Origin: Haladaptatus cibarius D43
GTDB lineage: Archaea > Halobacteriota > Halobacteria > Halobacteriales > Haladaptataceae
Reading direction: 5' to 3'
Length of the DNA stretch: 64,000 bases
Assembly: GCF_000710615.1 (NCBI RefSeq)
Contig: NZ_JDTH01000002.1
Location: 1-64,000, forward strand
Below are positions 2,217-11,190 of the stretch, one piece after another. Both the position numbers and the translations under genes were made by a program. The notes under the pieces were generated by a model, which made no database searches, was not told where the DNA came from, and worked only from the letters and a program-made list of their open reading frames with translations. How positions within the stretch are numbered: the first letter of the stretch is position 1; each line of letters begins with the position of its first letter.

Positions 2217-3170
2217 TTAGGCCGTGAGGTAGGCACCTGCGTAGGCCAGTACCGCGACGGTAACCGCGGCCATGCCGGTACAGAGCCACGCCCGTGGGTC
2301 TCGCTCGACGCGGAACGAGCGCAGTGGATACAGCTTCGGGCCGACGCCGACGGCCCCGACGGCGAGCACCGAGAAGACGAAGTGGTACGAAACGTCGAGC
2401 GTCGGTGCCGGAAGGAACAGCGCAGTGAGCGCGTAGCCTGCGCCGAGCGTTGCTCGCCCGTGGACGTGACCCAGCAGGTGTTTTTCGTGGTCATGGGAAC
2501 CGTCGCGCAAGCGGAAGTACGCGAAGACGGCGAGCCACGCGGCCGCCAGTTCCACGCCGAAGATTGCGAGCAGGTTCAGCGTCGCGTCGGGCGGATACAG
2601 GGCGACTCGGTTGTGAAGCAGGACGGTGTCGAAGGGGTAGAGAAACTGCGGCGGTTCGCCCGTGAACACGTCGCCGAAGGGATGGGACAGCAGGCCGAAC
2701 GCCGCCGCGGCGAGTAGCTCTCGGGATTGGAGGTCGGTGCTCGCATTCGCGGCGAGTGCGACCGCCGCCCCCGCCAGTACGAAGACGAGCATGACGCCCG
2801 CACCGAGGACGCCGCTTTCCACGAAGCCAATCCAGACGAGCGCCGAGAGAACGACCGCGCCGACCGTTCTTTTGTCCCTTCGTCCGGTTAGCAGGACGAA
2901 TCCGGGAGCCGCGACGAGCGCGACGACGAGGGAGTGCGTCACCGCTCTGTGGACGAGTTGTGAACTCCCCCAGAACGCGTTGGTCATCGACCAGACGCCG
3001 CCGAATCCGGCTTGCGCGAGTCCGACCAGCGCGTAGGCCATATCCACGTCGGGAACCGCGGCGAACGCGCCCGCGACTACGCCGAACGCGAACGCGCGCT
3101 CTGCGGGCCAGTATCGGTTGGCGACGAGCGCCGCCAACGCGAAGGCTAACAGAGCGTGGCCGACCATCAT
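2217..3170 (-). CDS. Membrane-bound metal-dependent hydrolase, YdjM/DUF457 family
   Basis: This 317-residue integral membrane protein starts MMVGHALLAFALAALV and has the family signature: an N-terminal H, VPDVDMAY at about residue 40, HRAVTHSL near residue 91, and LLSHPFGDVFT near residue 160. These His/Asp residues are the predicted metal ligands of the LexA-regulated YdjM hydrolases. About eight hydrophobic helices are visible. It is first in a three-gene minus-strand operon. A TATA element (TTTATAG on the minus strand, 3196-3202) lies 29 nt upstream, so the mRNA is probably leaderless. The substrate is unknown. Confidence 0.85.
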   Translation of the reverse strand: MMVGHALLAFALAALVANRYWPAERAFAFGVVAGAFAAVPDVDMAYALVGLAQAGFGGVWSMTNAFWGSSQLVHRAVTHSLVVALVAAPGFVLLTGRRDKRTVGAVVLSALVWIGFVESGVLGAGVMLVFVLAGAAVALAANASTDLQSRELLAAAAFGLLSHPFGDVFTGEPPQFLYPFDTVLLHNRVALYPPDATLNLLAIFGVELAAAWLAVFAYFRLRDGSHDHEKHLLGHVHGRATLGAGYALTALFLPAPTLDVSYHFVFSVLAVGAVGVGPKLYPLRSFRVERDPRAWLCTGMAAVTVAVLAYAGAYLTA

Positions 3171-3374: not shown

Positions 3375-4106
3375 TTAGAACTGCGACTGCTGGACGGGCG
3401 ACTGCTGCATCGGCGATTGCTGTTGGGTGGACGACTCCTGTCCGCTTTGGAGTCCGTCGAGCAGTCGGTAGGTCGAATCGACGGCTCGGGAAAGCACGGT
3501 TGCACACTCCTGACAGTGCGCGTGCGGGTGTTGTCTGCACTCGTCGGCGCATTCCTCGGCGGCACGCGCGAACACTTCCGCGACTTCCGGCCCGAAGACC
3601 GAATCGCGGGAGATGAGCTTCGCGTTCAGCGTTCCGAGGTCTGCAACGTCGCGGCAGAGTCGGATGCAGTTTGCCATCTGCGGCCCTTCGTCAATGCACT
3701 GGTCGGCACACCAGTCACACACCTTCGCGGCCTTCTCGAAGTCTTCGAGCGCGATTCGCATCTCGCCCGGCAGTTGGTCTTCGAACTGGCCAACCTGCTG
3801 TGTCGTTTGCTGGCCCTGCTGGGTCATCCCCTGTTGACCCATGCCTTGCTGGCCGATTCCCTGTTGAGTTTCCTGACCGATTCCTTGCTGGCCCTGCTGG
3901 CCACCGGGAATCTGGCTCTGTTGTTGCGGCTGGCCGTGCTGCTGTGTCTGTTGCCGCTGCTGTCCCTGTGTTGGGCCATACTGCTGTCCTTGCATCTGGC
4001 CCTGTTGTTGTGGTTGGCCGTGCTGCTGTGTCTGCGGTTGACCGTACTGCTGACTCTGACCGTGTTGCTGTCCGTGTGAACCCTGCATGTGTCTCTGTTG
4101 TGCCAT
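3375..4106 (-). CDS. Gln-rich protein with a Csp/DUF326-like four-helix copper-storage domain
   Basis: This 243-residue protein has two parts. Residues 1-105 are low complexity, mostly Gln, Gly, Met and His, built from near-repeats such as QQHGQPQQQ and GIGQQGM. Residues 110-222 form a helical domain with nine cysteines (130, 133, 137, 147, 151, 186, 190, 198, 201) in CxxC and CxxxC pairs plus HPHAHC. This pattern is typical of four-helix-bundle copper-binding proteins that store Cu(I). A short Gln/Ser/Pro tail closes the protein. The ATG at 4106 is chosen because GGAGG stands 5-7 nt upstream; an ATG at 4151 would add 15 unrelated residues. Copper storage is inferred from the Cys pattern. The role of the Q-rich part is unknown. 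Confidence 0.82.
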   Translation of the reverse strand: MAQQRHMQGSHGQQHGQSQQYGQPQTQQHGQPQQQGQMQGQQYGPTQGQQRQQTQQHGQPQQQSQIPGGQQGQQGIGQETQQGIGQQGMGQQGMTQQGQQTTQQVGQFEDQLPGEMRIALEDFEKAAKVCDWCADQCIDEGPQMANCIRLCRDVADLGTLNAKLISRDSVFGPEVAEVFARAAEECADECRQHPHAHCQECATVLSRAVDSTYRLLDGLQSGQESSTQQQSPMQQSPVQQSQF

Positions 4107-4298
4107 TGTTTTCCTCCACCCAGCAACGTGCTGGGGTGTCCCGCGATACACCGATAGCCCGAATAAACGGCGGCGACTGTTTCCACCGTTTGGAAACCGT
4201 TCGACCGGAGAAACGCCGCGTTGCCCGATTCAACGAGTCGTTGGACGCGGGGTGCCGGGAAGGCGGGGTTTTTGGTACCTCGCGTGATACTGTGGCGC

Positions 4299-5483
4299 AT
4301 GGAAAAGCCCACCGTAGGCGAGTTGACACCACCCGACAGGACGCTGATGGGACCCGGCCCGAGCGAAGTGCATCCCCGCGTACTCAGGGCGATGAGTACG
4401 CCGTTGGTCGGTCATTTAGACCCGTCGTTTATCGAGGTGATGAACGACGTGCAAGACCTGCTCCGGTACACCTTCCGAACCGACAATAAGTGGACGATTC
4501 CGGTATCCGGCACGGGGTCGGCGTCGATGGAGGCCGCGATAGGCAACGTGGTCGAACCCGGCGACACCATGCTCGTCCCGACGAACGGCTACTTCGGCGG
4601 GCGGATGGAGTCGATGGCGACTCGCGCAGGCGGCGAGGTCGTCCACGTGGACGCGCCGTGGGGCGAACCCCTTGACCCGGCAGATGTTCGCGTCGCGTTC
4701 GAAGAACACGACCCGGACGTGTTTGGATTCGTTCACGCCGAAACGAGTACCGGCGTGGTTCAACCCGACGTTTCTGCACTCACGGACATCGCACACGATC
4801 ACGACGCACTGGTGATTGCCGACTGTGTCACCTCCCTCGGCGGCGTCGAACTCCGTGTTGACGAATGGGACATCGACGTGGCCTACTCCGGCCCGCAGAA
4901 ATGCCTCTCCTGTCCACCCGGAGCCAGTCCGTTGACGCTCAACGACCGCGCGATGGACAAAGTGTTGTCGCGCGAGGAACCCGCTCGGTCGTGGTATCTC
5001 GACCTCAGCTTGCTCGAAGGCTACTGGGGCGACGAGCGCGCCTACCACCACACCGCCCCGATTACGAACGTCTACGCGCTCCGCGAAGCTCTCCGCCTCG
5101 TCGCCGAGGAAGGTATCGAAGCGCGATGGGAACGCCACCGAAAGATGGCTGGCGCGCTCAAGGCGGGCGTCGAGGCGATGGGAGTCGAGATGAACGCACC
5201 CGACGACTACTGGTTGCCGAGTCTGAACGCGGTTCGGGTGCCTGCGGGGGTCACGGATACGGACGTGACGGACTACCTGCTGGAACAGTACGATCTCGAA
5301 ATTGCGACTGGACTCGGTGATTTGGACGGCGAAATCTTCCGTATCGGCTGTATGGGCTACTCCGCCCGGCCCGAGACGGTGTCCTATCTAGTCAGCGCGC
5401 TCGGCGATGCCTTGGAAAAACAGGGTGCAAACGTGAACGTGGAGGCCGGATTATCCGCGACGAGCACTGCACTCGGCAGATAG
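4299..5483 (+). CDS. Class V PLP aminotransferase (alanine-glyoxylate / serine-pyruvate type)
   Basis: This 394-residue fold-type I transaminase matches alanine-glyoxylate or serine-pyruvate aminotransferases. It begins with the substrate-loop motif LMGPGPSEVHPRVLRAM. It has SGTGSASMEAA for cofactor phosphate binding (about 70-80), ETSTGVVQPD (148-157), the PLP-ring aspartate in VIADCVTSLGG (172-182), and the Schiff-base lysine at about 201 in SGPQKCLSCPPG. The ATG at 4299 puts the family N-terminus in the expected place; the upstream extension is not conserved-looking. It probably interconverts glyoxylate, alanine, serine and pyruvate. Exact specificity is not readable. It appears monocistronic and convergent with the HalOD1 gene, 4 bp away. 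Confidence 0.92.
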   Translation: MEKPTVGELTPPDRTLMGPGPSEVHPRVLRAMSTPLVGHLDPSFIEVMNDVQDLLRYTFRTDNKWTIPVSGTGSASMEAAIGNVVEPGDTMLVPTNGYFGGRMESMATRAGGEVVHVDAPWGEPLDPADVRVAFEEHDPDVFGFVHAETSTGVVQPDVSALTDIAHDHDALVIADCVTSLGGVELRVDEWDIDVAYSGPQKCLSCPPGASPLTLNDRAMDKVLSREEPARSWYLDLSLLEGYWGDERAYHHTAPITNVYALREALRLVAEEGIEARWERHRKMAGALKAGVEAMGVEMNAPDDYWLPSLNAVRVPAGVTDTDVTDYLLEQYDLEIATGLGDLDGEIFRIGCMGYSARPETVSYLVSALGDALEKQGANVNVEAGLSATSTALGR

Positions 5484-8457: not shown

Positions 8458-9942
8458 CTAGCACGAACTGACTGTTTCGAAGTATCCCGCAGAAGTCTCC
8501 TTCAGCGTACTCGTGTAGGCCGGGAATCCGAGGTAGTCGTCCGACCCCACGGCGTAGTAGGCTCCGGTCGAAGTGTCCTGATAAGCCCGGCCAGCAGTGC
8601 CGTGGTCGTAGTTGGTCGCAGAACCACAGTAGCCCGAAAATTCGTCCCCGACCGTCACGACCACAGAATCCGTGTCAGTTGCGCCAGCATCATCGCTGAC
8701 GGTCAGCGTGGCGGTGTACTCGCCCGCGGAATCGTAACTGTGGCTTACCGCCGCGCCGGTTCCGGTCGCACCGTCGCCGAGCTCCCAGTCGTAACTCGCA
8801 ATCGTGCCGTCGGAATCGACAGACCCGCTTCCGTCGAAACTGACCGATTCGCCGACTGCGGGGGAATTTGATGTCGCACTGGCGGATGCCGTCGGAGTGT
8901 TGTTGTCGCCATTTCCACCGTCGCCGCCGTCGTCCCCATTGCGGGGATGGGCCGCGAAAAAGTCCCACATTTGCTGGCTGGCGTCCGGGCCGCCGGGGGC
9001 GGTGTACGCGCCGCCTTGTGCGCCGCCCGACCACGCGTGGGCCATGCCGTCGATTATCCACTTTTCCACGACGGTTTCCCCGCCGCTGTCGTGGTACTCC
9101 GAGACGGTGTAGCTGAACGACTCGGATTGCCCGTTCGTCGTCTCGTCGGGGGTGTAATCCGTGCTGTCGTCGTCCGTCCCGTCCGCCGCGAGGTCGTTCG
9201 TCTGCGTGGCCTGTTCCGTAGCCTGATGGCCGTTTATCGGATAAACGGTATAATCTTCCGTTCCGTGGAAAACGATGGTCGGAACCGTGTCCGTGACGCC
9301 GTTCGACTGCATCGCTTGATAGGCTTCGGTACCCTGCTGTTGCGGGTCGGGGCCGCCCTGCGTCATCGCCGTCGTGGCTTGGGAGACGTTCTCGGCCACG
9401 TCGTACACCAGGCCGGAGTGAATCCCGCCCGCCGCGAACACGTCGGGGTAGGCGACCAGCAGGTTCGGCACCATCGCCGCGCCTGCCGACAGTCCGGCGA
9501 CGAACACCCGATTGTCGTCTATCGAATGGCTCGCCATCACGTCCTGTGCCATGCCCGCGATGAGTTCGGCTTCGCCGCTTCCGCGCGTCGTGTGCTGGTC
9601 TTGAAACCAATTCCAACACTCCCGGATGTTCGCGCTGGTCGTCTGGTCGGGATAGATGACCGCGAAGGTTTCGCGCTCCGCAACCTCGTTCATTTGCGTC
9701 TCGTCTTTGAACTGGTCTGGGTTCTGGGTACAGCCGTGGAGCATCACGACGAGGGGAATCGCCGACCCATCCGCACCGGTCGGAATGTATTTCGTGTAGG
9801 TTCGCCCGTCGTAGGTTTCAGTGGTGTACGACCCCTTTGCCGCGCTCGTCGAACCGCTGAGAATCGCACTCGCTCCGACGCCAGCACCGACTGATTTGAG
9901 GAGGGTTCGTCGTTTCGTGTTGATTTTTTCTGCCACTTTCAC
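8458..9942 (-). CDS. Secreted PHA-depolymerase-like esterase with PKD domain
   Basis: This 494-residue protein begins with a Tat signal (Arg11-Arg12, then a hydrophobic stretch ending near Ala35). The alpha/beta-hydrolase domain (about 38-335) is of the PHB-depolymerase/feruloyl-esterase type. It has the oxyanion motif VVMLHGCTQNPDQF, nucleophile Ser152 in GLSAG, Asp230 in FHGTEDYTV, and His302 in GMAHAWSGG. A Gly/Asp-rich linker is followed by a PKD domain (about 349-432) with SYDWELGDG. A C-terminal module (437-494) has GRAYQDTSTGAYYAVGS and TLKETSAGYF, as in substrate-binding ends of PHA depolymerases. Likely substrate: an extracellular polyester or other ester polymer. It overlaps the upstream paralogue by 4 nt. 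Confidence 0.9.
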   Translation of the reverse strand: MKVAEKINTKRRTLLKSVGAGVGASAILSGSTSAAKGSYTTETYDGRTYTKYIPTGADGSAIPLVVMLHGCTQNPDQFKDETQMNEVAERETFAVIYPDQTTSANIRECWNWFQDQHTTRGSGEAELIAGMAQDVMASHSIDDNRVFVAGLSAGAAMVPNLLVAYPDVFAAGGIHSGLVYDVAENVSQATTAMTQGGPDPQQQGTEAYQAMQSNGVTDTVPTIVFHGTEDYTVYPINGHQATEQATQTNDLAADGTDDDSTDYTPDETTNGQSESFSYTVSEYHDSGGETVVEKWIIDGMAHAWSGGAQGGAYTAPGGPDASQQMWDFFAAHPRNGDDGGDGGNGDNNTPTASASATSNSPAVGESVSFDGSGSVDSDGTIASYDWELGDGATGTGAAVSHSYDSAGEYTATLTVSDDAGATDTDSVVVTVGDEFSGYCGSATNYDHGTAGRAYQDTSTGAYYAVGSDDYLGFPAYTSTLKETSAGYFETVSSC

Positions 9943-10931
9943 TCACCCCTCGTGTGCTCGGCGAAGAAATCCCACATCCGCCGATTCGCGTCCGGGCCGC
10001 CCGGCGCGGTGTACTCCCCGCCTGCGGTTCCGCCCGACCACGCGTGGCCCATGGCGTCGATTTCCCAGTACTCCACCAGATTTGTGCCGGAGTCGTCGTG
10101 GTACTCCGAAACGGTGTAGCTGAACGACTCGGATTGCCCGTTCGTCACGGAGTCCGCCGTCGTATCGACGTTGTCGTCGTTCGCGTCGTCGGAGGCGAGG
10201 TCATTGGTCTGTATCGCCTGAATCGTCGCTTGGTCGCCGTTTACCGGCGCGACTGTGTCGTCCGCGGTGCCGTGGAAGACGATGGTTGGGCACAAACTCG
10301 TGATGCCGTAGTGCTCCATCGCGTCGTAGGCATCGATACCTTTCGCGTGGGGGTCTGGCCCGCCGTACTCCATCGCCGCCGTCGCCCCGGTTACGGTGTC
10401 CGCGGCGTCGTATTCGAGCGCCGAGTGGATACCGCCCGCCGCGTAGATGTCGGCGTACTCCGCGAGTAGATTCGGAACCATCGCGCCCCCTGCCGACAGT
10501 CCCGCAACGTAGACGCGCTCTGCATCGAGAGTGTGCACATCTATCGTTTCCTGTGTCATCCCGGCGATAACCGCGGCCTCGCCGTTTCCGCGGACGGTGT
10601 TCGCGTCGTAGAACCAGTTCCAGCACTGTTCTGCGTTGCGTGCGTTGTACTGGTCGGGGTAGATGACGACGAACCCCTCTTCGTCCGCGAGTTCGTTCAT
10701 GCCCGTTTCGACGCGAAACTGGTCTGCGTCTTGGGTACAGCCGTGGAGCATCACGACGAGCGGCGACCCTGCGCCCGCCGAATCGGGCACGTACTTCCAG
10801 TAGTCGAATCCGCTGTAGTAGTGATTCGTGTACGAGCCTGCTGCAGTTGCAGTTCCCGCGCTTCCGAGGATGCTCGCCGTGGCAACCGTTTCGCCGACCG
10901 ACCGCAGGAGTGTGCGCCTGTCGAGTTTCAT
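9939..10931 (-). CDS. Secreted PHA-depolymerase-like esterase, single domain
   Basis: This 330-residue paralogue of the downstream gene lacks the PKD and C-terminal modules. A Tat signal begins MKLDRRTLLRSVG. The catalytic triad is Ser146 (GLSAG), Asp224 or Asp225 (GTADDTV) and His296 (GHAWSGG), with MLHGCTQDADQF as the oxyanion region. The ATG at 10931 places the twin arginine near the N-terminus; the longer frame would bury it. Its stop overlaps the start of the next gene (ATGA), so the two are translated from one mRNA. Tandem single- and multi-domain copies suggest division of labour between soluble oligomers and polymer surface. Confidence 0.9.
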   Translation of the reverse strand: MKLDRRTLLRSVGETVATASILGSAGTATAAGSYTNHYYSGFDYWKYVPDSAGAGSPLVVMLHGCTQDADQFRVETGMNELADEEGFVVIYPDQYNARNAEQCWNWFYDANTVRGNGEAAVIAGMTQETIDVHTLDAERVYVAGLSAGGAMVPNLLAEYADIYAAGGIHSALEYDAADTVTGATAAMEYGGPDPHAKGIDAYDAMEHYGITSLCPTIVFHGTADDTVAPVNGDQATIQAIQTNDLASDDANDDNVDTTADSVTNGQSESFSYTVSEYHDDSGTNLVEYWEIDAMGHAWSGGTAGGEYTAPGGPDANRRMWDFFAEHTRGE

Positions 10932-11190
10932 GGTATGGCGTATCGTGCCAACGCCATCAAGCAAAATCTAACGATGGGTTAATATGTAAATATAGTTGGC
11001 TCGTACCGGGAAACGTTTCGCTATGGAATTGTGGGATGTCGCCTAAGACACTAATTGGCGAAAATTTATTAGTAGGCTCGGTAGCGCTGACCCCGAACGA
11101 TTTGCTTTGCTCGAAACCGAGATGTCGAACGTAACTTCCCGAGTTTTCTATTCCCGATAACTCTTGAATTGGGGGAAAGTGGAATGCTAT

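Follow-up and report, generated by a model that had tools for sequence, protein, structure and literature searches.

The window, meaning the whole stretch of 64,000 nucleotides of Haladaptatus cibarius D43 DNA analyzed here, carries on its reverse strand a gene for a protein in which a bundle resembling the copper-storage proteins (Csp) is placed between two Gln-rich tails. The gene, its parts and its immediate surroundings are as follows.

3375..4106, reverse strand: coding sequence of the Gln-tailed Csp-like protein, 243 amino acids plus stop, read as an open reading frame from an ATG, with orthologues in 9/9 Haladaptatus genomes
3786..4106, reverse strand: N-terminal disordered tail, residues 1-107, with 50 Gln and 22 Gly, recognized from composition, an AlphaFold2 pLDDT of about 50 and codon-level constraint
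3441..3785, reverse strand: predicted Csp-like four-helix bundle, residues 108-222 (AlphaFold2, Foldseek, VIA-align)
3654..3719, reverse strand: Cys130, Cys133 and Cys137 at the end of helix 1 and Cys147 and Cys151 at the start of helix 2, by position half of a putative mouth-end thiol site
3504..3551, reverse strand: Cys186, Cys190, His193-x-His195-x-His197, Cys198 and Cys201 at the end of helix 3, in the loop and at the start of helix 4, aligned to C77, C81, H84, H86, H88, C89 and C92 of BsCsp3
3378..3440, reverse strand: Gln-rich tail at the C-terminus (residues 223-243, Gln at 9 of the 21 positions), with ...QQSQF as its last residues
4119..4135, reverse strand: inverted repeat CCCAGCA-3-TGCTGGG in the leader, immediately before GGAGG, its CCCAG/CTGGG arms kept in 9/9 orthologues
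4161..4167, reverse strand: TATA-like TTTATTC, conserved as TTTATYC in the leader alignment, a promoter at a guess
4299..5483, forward strand: divergent neighbor, which we take from its sequence to be aminotransferase-like; adjacent in 9/9 Haladaptatus genomes and in none of the flanks fetched from other genera
2217..3170, reverse strand: downstream neighbor, presumably a membrane protein of DUF457 type; adjacent, or next after a tandem second copy, in 9/9 Haladaptatus genomes

Two start codons are available to the frame, an upstream GTG giving 258 residues and an ATG giving 243. The ATG is favored, since GGAGG directly precedes it and the aligned leaders are alike in all nine Haladaptatus genomes. 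Many haloarchaeal mRNAs are leaderless, which makes the inverted repeat in this leader unusual. A promoter and terminator scan, uninformative for archaea, returned no sigma-70 sites. The putative membrane-protein gene follows the window gene directly, with no tandem copy between them; in 3/9 Haladaptatus genomes (L059:5595-6161, L063:5594-6178 and L007), a further tailed copy bearing 4 Cys was observed in tandem downstream. A conserved operon around the gene was considered and rejected, the synteny being confined to Haladaptatus. Farther along the window, two adjacent and similar secreted esterase-like genes (8458-9942 and 9939-10964, reverse strand) are presumably PHB-depolymerase-like.

The original prediction, of about 105 Gln-rich residues ahead of the bundle and a Gln-rich tail behind it, proved accurate for both tails. 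The first 107 residues of the protein comprise Q 50, G 22, T 7, M 5, H 5 and P 5, and include only three charged residues (E 1, R 2, D 0, K 0) and no Asn; this tail is therefore long, practically uncharged, Gln-rich and predicted to be disordered. The 60 residues preceding the core hold 29 Gln, whereas the maximum per 60 residues is 11 among 43 other open reading frames of the window selected by a codon-GC filter, which excludes the tailed gene itself. A frame error, the artefact that had been feared, was excluded together with mis-assembly by the nine orthologues and by the distribution of base changes: against the Haladaptatus litoreus orthologue, which is 99% identical, the differences in 85 aligned codons of the N-terminal tail fall 1/1/13 on codon positions 1/2/3, with 12 synonymous and 2 non-synonymous codons. 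Against H. pallidirubidus, 10 synonymous and 14 non-synonymous codons were counted in the tail and 17 and 6 in the core, indicating that the tail evolves faster than the core, yet stays Gln-rich. The tails are under codon-level constraint. A simple DNA tandem repeat was also rejected as the origin of the tail, its DNA containing just two short arrays. That the tail is a functionless low-complexity expansion drifting neutrally is scarcely credible. Those short repeats and the variation of tail sequence and length among species, for example 107 versus 84 residues among close relatives, would suit such drift, but the synonymous excess against H. litoreus (reversed against H. pallidirubidus), the presence of the tail in every orthologue and throughout the tailed branch described below, and the similar tails on other domains argue against it.

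Structure prediction, proposed originally as a check, returned a Csp-type four-helix bundle between disordered tails. In the AlphaFold2 model, built from a 38-row alignment, the main helices span residues 114-138, 142-166, 172-191 and 196-228, and pLDDT is about 98 for the greater part of the bundle and about 50-60 in the tails. The best Foldseek match was Cu(I)-BsCsp3 (6wkt, E 1.6e-5), the top rows being Csp3s. By VIA-align, the model matched Streptomyces Csp 6q58_D with a Z of 19.6 and 1.3 A over 109 residues, within a Csp3 range of Z 18.4-19.6; the best row outside Csp/DUF326-like structures, among which we count PA2107 and Nmul_A1745, reached Z 12.8. The four-helix bundle of Csp3 proteins is therefore present in the predicted model. 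The Pfam scan of the window protein gave no match, and NCBIfam TIGR04401 (the Csp1 family) scored 29.7 bits, below its cut-off of 100. The assignment to Csp/DUF326 consequently holds at the level of predicted fold, but not at that of curated families. The same bundle was predicted for a Halorussus relative with only 4 Cys, for which the best Foldseek rows were Csp (E 1.9e-3); a sequence search of the PDB with this relative found no related chain, only two unrelated rows (best E 0.4).

All nine Cys of the window bundle lie at its "mouth" end. Eight of them (Cys130, 133, 137, 147, 186, 190, 198 and 201) align with BsCsp3 Cys19, 22, 26, 38, 77, 81, 89 and 92, and the ninth, Cys151, faces Asp42. 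His193, His195 and His197 align with BsCsp3 His84, His86 and His88, all three at the mouth, so that the His motif running from helix 3 through the loop to helix 4 of Csp3 proteins is retained. BsCsp3 C15, C45, C49, C67, C70 and C74 have no Cys counterpart; judged from the alignment, the ligands lost by the window protein lie farther in, away from the mouth end. The Csp3 mouth is described as formed at two loops (PMC10155185, PMC5171941), where the ligands kept by the window protein map. The window protein thus resembles BsCsp3, MtCsp3 and SlCsp3 in its bundle and its mouth ligands, but it differs from Csp3s in having 9 Cys at one end instead of the 18-19 reported (PMC10155185), in lacking a core lined along its length by 13-19 Cys, and in bearing the two tails. 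RkCsp3 of Methylocystis is likewise a naturally occurring Csp3 whose copper sites are changed, but it is reported to have kept the core and lost the mouth Cys and His motif (PMC10155185); the window protein shows the reverse, and the pattern of the RkCsp3 subgroup was not seen in it. Cys133, Cys137, Cys147 and Cys151 are invariant in a 38-sequence alignment that includes no 1-Cys or Met-substituted proteins. In other tailed groups mostly just the Cys of helices 1 and 2 are left, some members having Met for Cys137, and a single Cys is left in three Haladaptatus copies.

What distinguishes the tailed proteins from other haloarchaeal Csp-like bundles? Two further Csp-like copies in the genome of H. 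cibarius D43 (L002 and L003) are short and share the bundle at about 47-50% identity to the window protein, but have 15 and 14 Cys, no tails, and a place on a separate branch. The Cys comparison was extended to 127 unique bundles, 46 tailed and 81 counted as untailed. Tailed bundles were found to contain 1 (3 proteins), 4 (13), 5 (13), 8 (2) or 9 (15) Cys, whereas 77 of the 81 untailed bundles contain 13-17. The four exceptions are two fragments of 72-78 residues, L032, a tailed-branch protein with a stop interrupting its tail in the assembly concerned, and the second copy of L007, which groups with the tailed branch and bears a short tail. The tree, computed from 126 bundles with one fragment left out for its length and L032 and the L007 copy labelled as tailed, contains a single branch parting 48 tailed from 78 untailed bundles with support of 100/100. 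When two bacterial Csp3 stretches served as the outgroup and the untailed rows were thinned to 26, the tailed rows formed one clade (SH-aLRT 99, by a quick method), the order inside which is unsure because of few columns and long branches. The window protein groups with the tailed bundles in the tree and has the Gln-rich tails and the limit of 9 Cys that mark this branch.

The tailed orthologue was found at the same place in all nine Haladaptatus genomes searched, that of the window included. Untailed homologues, whose prevalence in the genus had been named as grounds for refutation, are thus not the norm there, and the homologue search recovered the same fusion across Halobacteria as well. 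Some match was obtained in 202 of the 391 Halobacteria genomes sampled, and the alignment enters the tail in at least 55 of the 391, belonging to 24 genera and 7 families; this lower bound counts query starts at or before residue 90 among matches listed to about E 7e-27, and the protein itself was read solely at the returned loci. In a contig scan with 183 confirmed hits, the best 80 were haloarchaeal records without exception. A one-off fusion is ruled out by this spread over the class and by the single tailed branch. In one genome, G319, the tailed gene (L195:5357-6160) is broken by a stop within the tail, making it either a pseudogene or an assembly error in the repeat. The bundle family is an established one; its tailed, Cys-poor branch is new as far as the literature searches show.

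The label of copper-storage protein does not fit this branch well: the window protein has nine Cys at one end and its tailed relatives are down to 8, 5, 4 or 1, whereas the untailed paralogues keep 14 and 15. "Four-helix bundle copper-binding protein" would likewise be a misleading name for Cys-poor members. Copper binding by tail His, as suggested originally, is not a shared feature either, as His is sparse in the pooled tails of the 46 unique tailed proteins (1.8%); Met is commoner (7.1%). The protein could still handle copper, its mouth Cys/His cluster binding a small number of Cu(I) ions while Met and His residues in the tail serve as low-affinity sites or Cu(I) guides. In keeping with this are the nine Cys and the HxHxHC motif of classical Csp3s, the four invariant Cys and the Met content of the tails; and, since the four mouth Cys persist in many members, selection may still act chiefly on metal binding. 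This explanation nevertheless appears rather unlikely, as same-tailed relatives fall to 4-5 Cys and even to one while the tails stay, Cys-rich untailed paralogues occupy the same genome, tail His is rare, and no copper gene was recognized beside the window gene among the neighbors as read from their sequences. The constancy of the tail while copper ligands come and go suggests that selection favors tail and bundle together over copper capacity.

The tails share another trait: 30 of the 46 unique tailed proteins end in F, Y or W, aromatics making up 2% of the tails elsewhere, and the aromatic C-terminal residue might act as a signal for docking or turnover. A functional parallel is offered by yeast Pbp1 (PMC8394241) and SNF5 (PMC8890752), in which long uncharged Gln- or Met-rich tails control assembly or interaction. 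There is no homology to these eukaryotic prion-like domains, and the window tail differs in lacking Asn and in residing in a salt-in cytoplasm. A tail acting as a sensor, whose interactions would be switched by His protonation or Met oxidation, can be imagined by analogy, such switching having been reported for the SNF5 Gln-rich domain (PMC8890752) and the Met-rich Pbp1 domain (PMC8394241). The five His and five Met of the window tail, the pooled Met content and a thiol site in the same protein would agree with a sensor, but the His are not conserved and the case is one of analogy only, leaving it very improbable.

Gln-rich tails were also detected on other proteins near some of the tailed bundles. 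The flanks of 80 loci (the best 80 of 183 confirmed) were scanned for Gln-rich frames, defined as having 10 or more Gln per 40 residues, and another such frame was present at 6/13 tailed loci versus 0/67 untailed loci (Fisher 5.7e-6). Chance nearness was rejected on this control, but the threshold matters, since at 9 Gln per 40 residues 8/67 untailed loci become positive. Three of the six positive loci come from MAGs that are close relatives of one another; the other three come from Halorarius litoreus, Haloarculaceae H-GB1-1 and HArc-gm2. No Gln-rich partner adjoins the tailed bundle at any of five Haladaptatus loci, the tandem copy aside, or two Halorussus loci, and none was found in the neighborhood of the window gene or in the wider flanks of three 4-5-Cys members (L191-L193).

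At 4 of the 13 tailed loci, the gene upstream of the bundle encodes a CBS-pair protein whose extended N-terminus is Gln/Pro-rich. A wholly disordered Gln/Arg/Gly protein was also found upstream, several of these ending in RDPETGxF. Clusters of a CBS pair and a Gln/Arg disordered protein beside the tailed bundle were noted at L183 (the same as L068, G378:C12:50500-60500), L065, L066 and L067. The H-GB1-1 locus (L183) adds a Dps with a Gln-rich N-terminal tail, a small protein with a Gln/Pro tail and a protein that is phasin-like as its sequence was read, with no family match in Pfam or NCBIfam. This Dps ends in ...TQGQF, comparable to the ...QQSQF of the window protein. The C-terminal motif RDPETGxF or RDPQTGRF is common to wholly disordered Gln/Arg/Gly/His-rich proteins (L031, L064, L066, L067, L133 and L182), and those tested had no Pfam match. 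Away from the bundle gene, G319 encodes Gln/Arg, CBS, Dps and Hsp20 proteins with Gln-rich tails, and G034 encodes CBS and Hsp20 proteins of this kind. Hsp20-type proteins with Gln/Pro-rich N-termini adjoin a Gln-rich disordered frame in both (L187:2270-2980 in G319; L188 in G034). CBS, Ferritin and HSP20 were confirmed by Pfam on the tailed proteins scanned, which included the Hsp20 of G319 and left out that of G034, and the tailed Dps scored above the NCBIfam Dps cut-off. The tailed Dps, Hsp20 and CBS proteins (L183, L186, L187) thus share the style of tail with the window protein, but have unrelated folds and do not lie beside its gene. No report of a Gln-tailed Csp, Dps or Hsp20 in haloarchaea came up in the searches of open-licence PMC papers.

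For CBS proteins, matches reaching the Gln tail, with the query starting no later than residue 100, were counted in at least 24 of the 391 genomes, 15 of which are among the at least 55 with tail-reaching bundle matches (Fisher 1.3e-8, uncorrected for shared ancestry); this co-occurrence is only suggestive. In the genome of H. cibarius D43, the best CBS match aligns with the CBS part alone and has no tail (query 165-302, a 148-residue open frame), and Dps has only a short Arg/Gln tail. A Gln/Arg-rich disordered protein is encoded there (G000:C2:744584-745228), and such proteins were found in 2/9 genomes of the genus.

The recurrence of one tail type on Dps, Hsp20 and CBS proteins, alongside fully disordered Gln/Arg proteins, would also be expected of hydrophilin-like protectants, in which uncharged Gln/Gly tails would maintain the solubility and hydration of oligomeric stress proteins through drying or shifts in salt, with no specific assembly. 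The hydrophilic, Gly-rich (22%) character of the tails agrees with such a role, but the recurrent aromatic C-terminal residue and the Met enrichment are needless for solubility, and the explanation is considered unlikely.

An assembly role is favored over both copper handling and a hydrophilin-like role by the constancy of the tail, the oligomeric nature of the folds that bear it and the suitability of uncharged tails to salt. Csp3s are tetramers, binding about 17-20 Cu(I) per monomer, and Csp3s, Dps and Hsp20 are all homo-oligomers. It is proposed, tentatively and at somewhat short of even probability, that the window protein works mainly as a scaffold derived from an oligomeric bundle, the tails driving its assembly and a remnant of the thiol or metal site persisting. 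Gln/Gly/Met-rich tails would have been gained once by a haloarchaeal branch of cytosolic Csp-type proteins, and the deep copper core would have been lost thereafter. We infer that the bundle still assembles; as a Csp3-type bundle oligomerizes, each particle would then show several long, uncharged, sticky tails, and Dps and Hsp20 particles would likewise carry many. The tails may self-associate into an assembly or condensate, workable in molar salt since they hardly depend on charge; phase separation, as originally envisaged, is plausible for the tailed protein, composition by itself being no proof of self-association. In some genera the tails might co-associate with Gln-tailed Dps, Hsp20, CBS-pair and phasin-like proteins and with the wholly disordered Gln/Arg proteins. 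The mouth-end Cys/His site, of nine Cys and HxHxH in the window protein, may bind a few Cu(I) ions or serve as a thiol/redox switch.

A broader version of the assembly proposal is possible but doubtful. It envisages a haloarchaeal system in which a common kind of uncharged tail, Gln/Gly/Met- or Gln/Pro-rich and often with an aromatic end, is carried by several oligomeric stress-protection folds (the Csp-derived bundle, Dps, Hsp20, the CBS pair and phasin-like proteins) and gathers them, with free Gln/Arg-rich disordered proteins, in one condensate or granule working in molar salt. The window protein, derived from a disarmed copper-storage protein, would be one of its most widespread members.

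Overall, a metal-storage fold that sheds its copper ligands yet keeps long disordered tails class-wide offers a natural experiment on the purpose of such tails. Should the tails prove to drive assembly, haloarchaea would possess a prokaryotic condensate system fit for molar salt, in which interactions between charges are screened, and proteins concerned with copper, iron (Dps), chaperoning (Hsp20) and the sensing of energy (CBS) would be physically linked. The wider set of Gln-tailed proteins would then represent a new kind of system.
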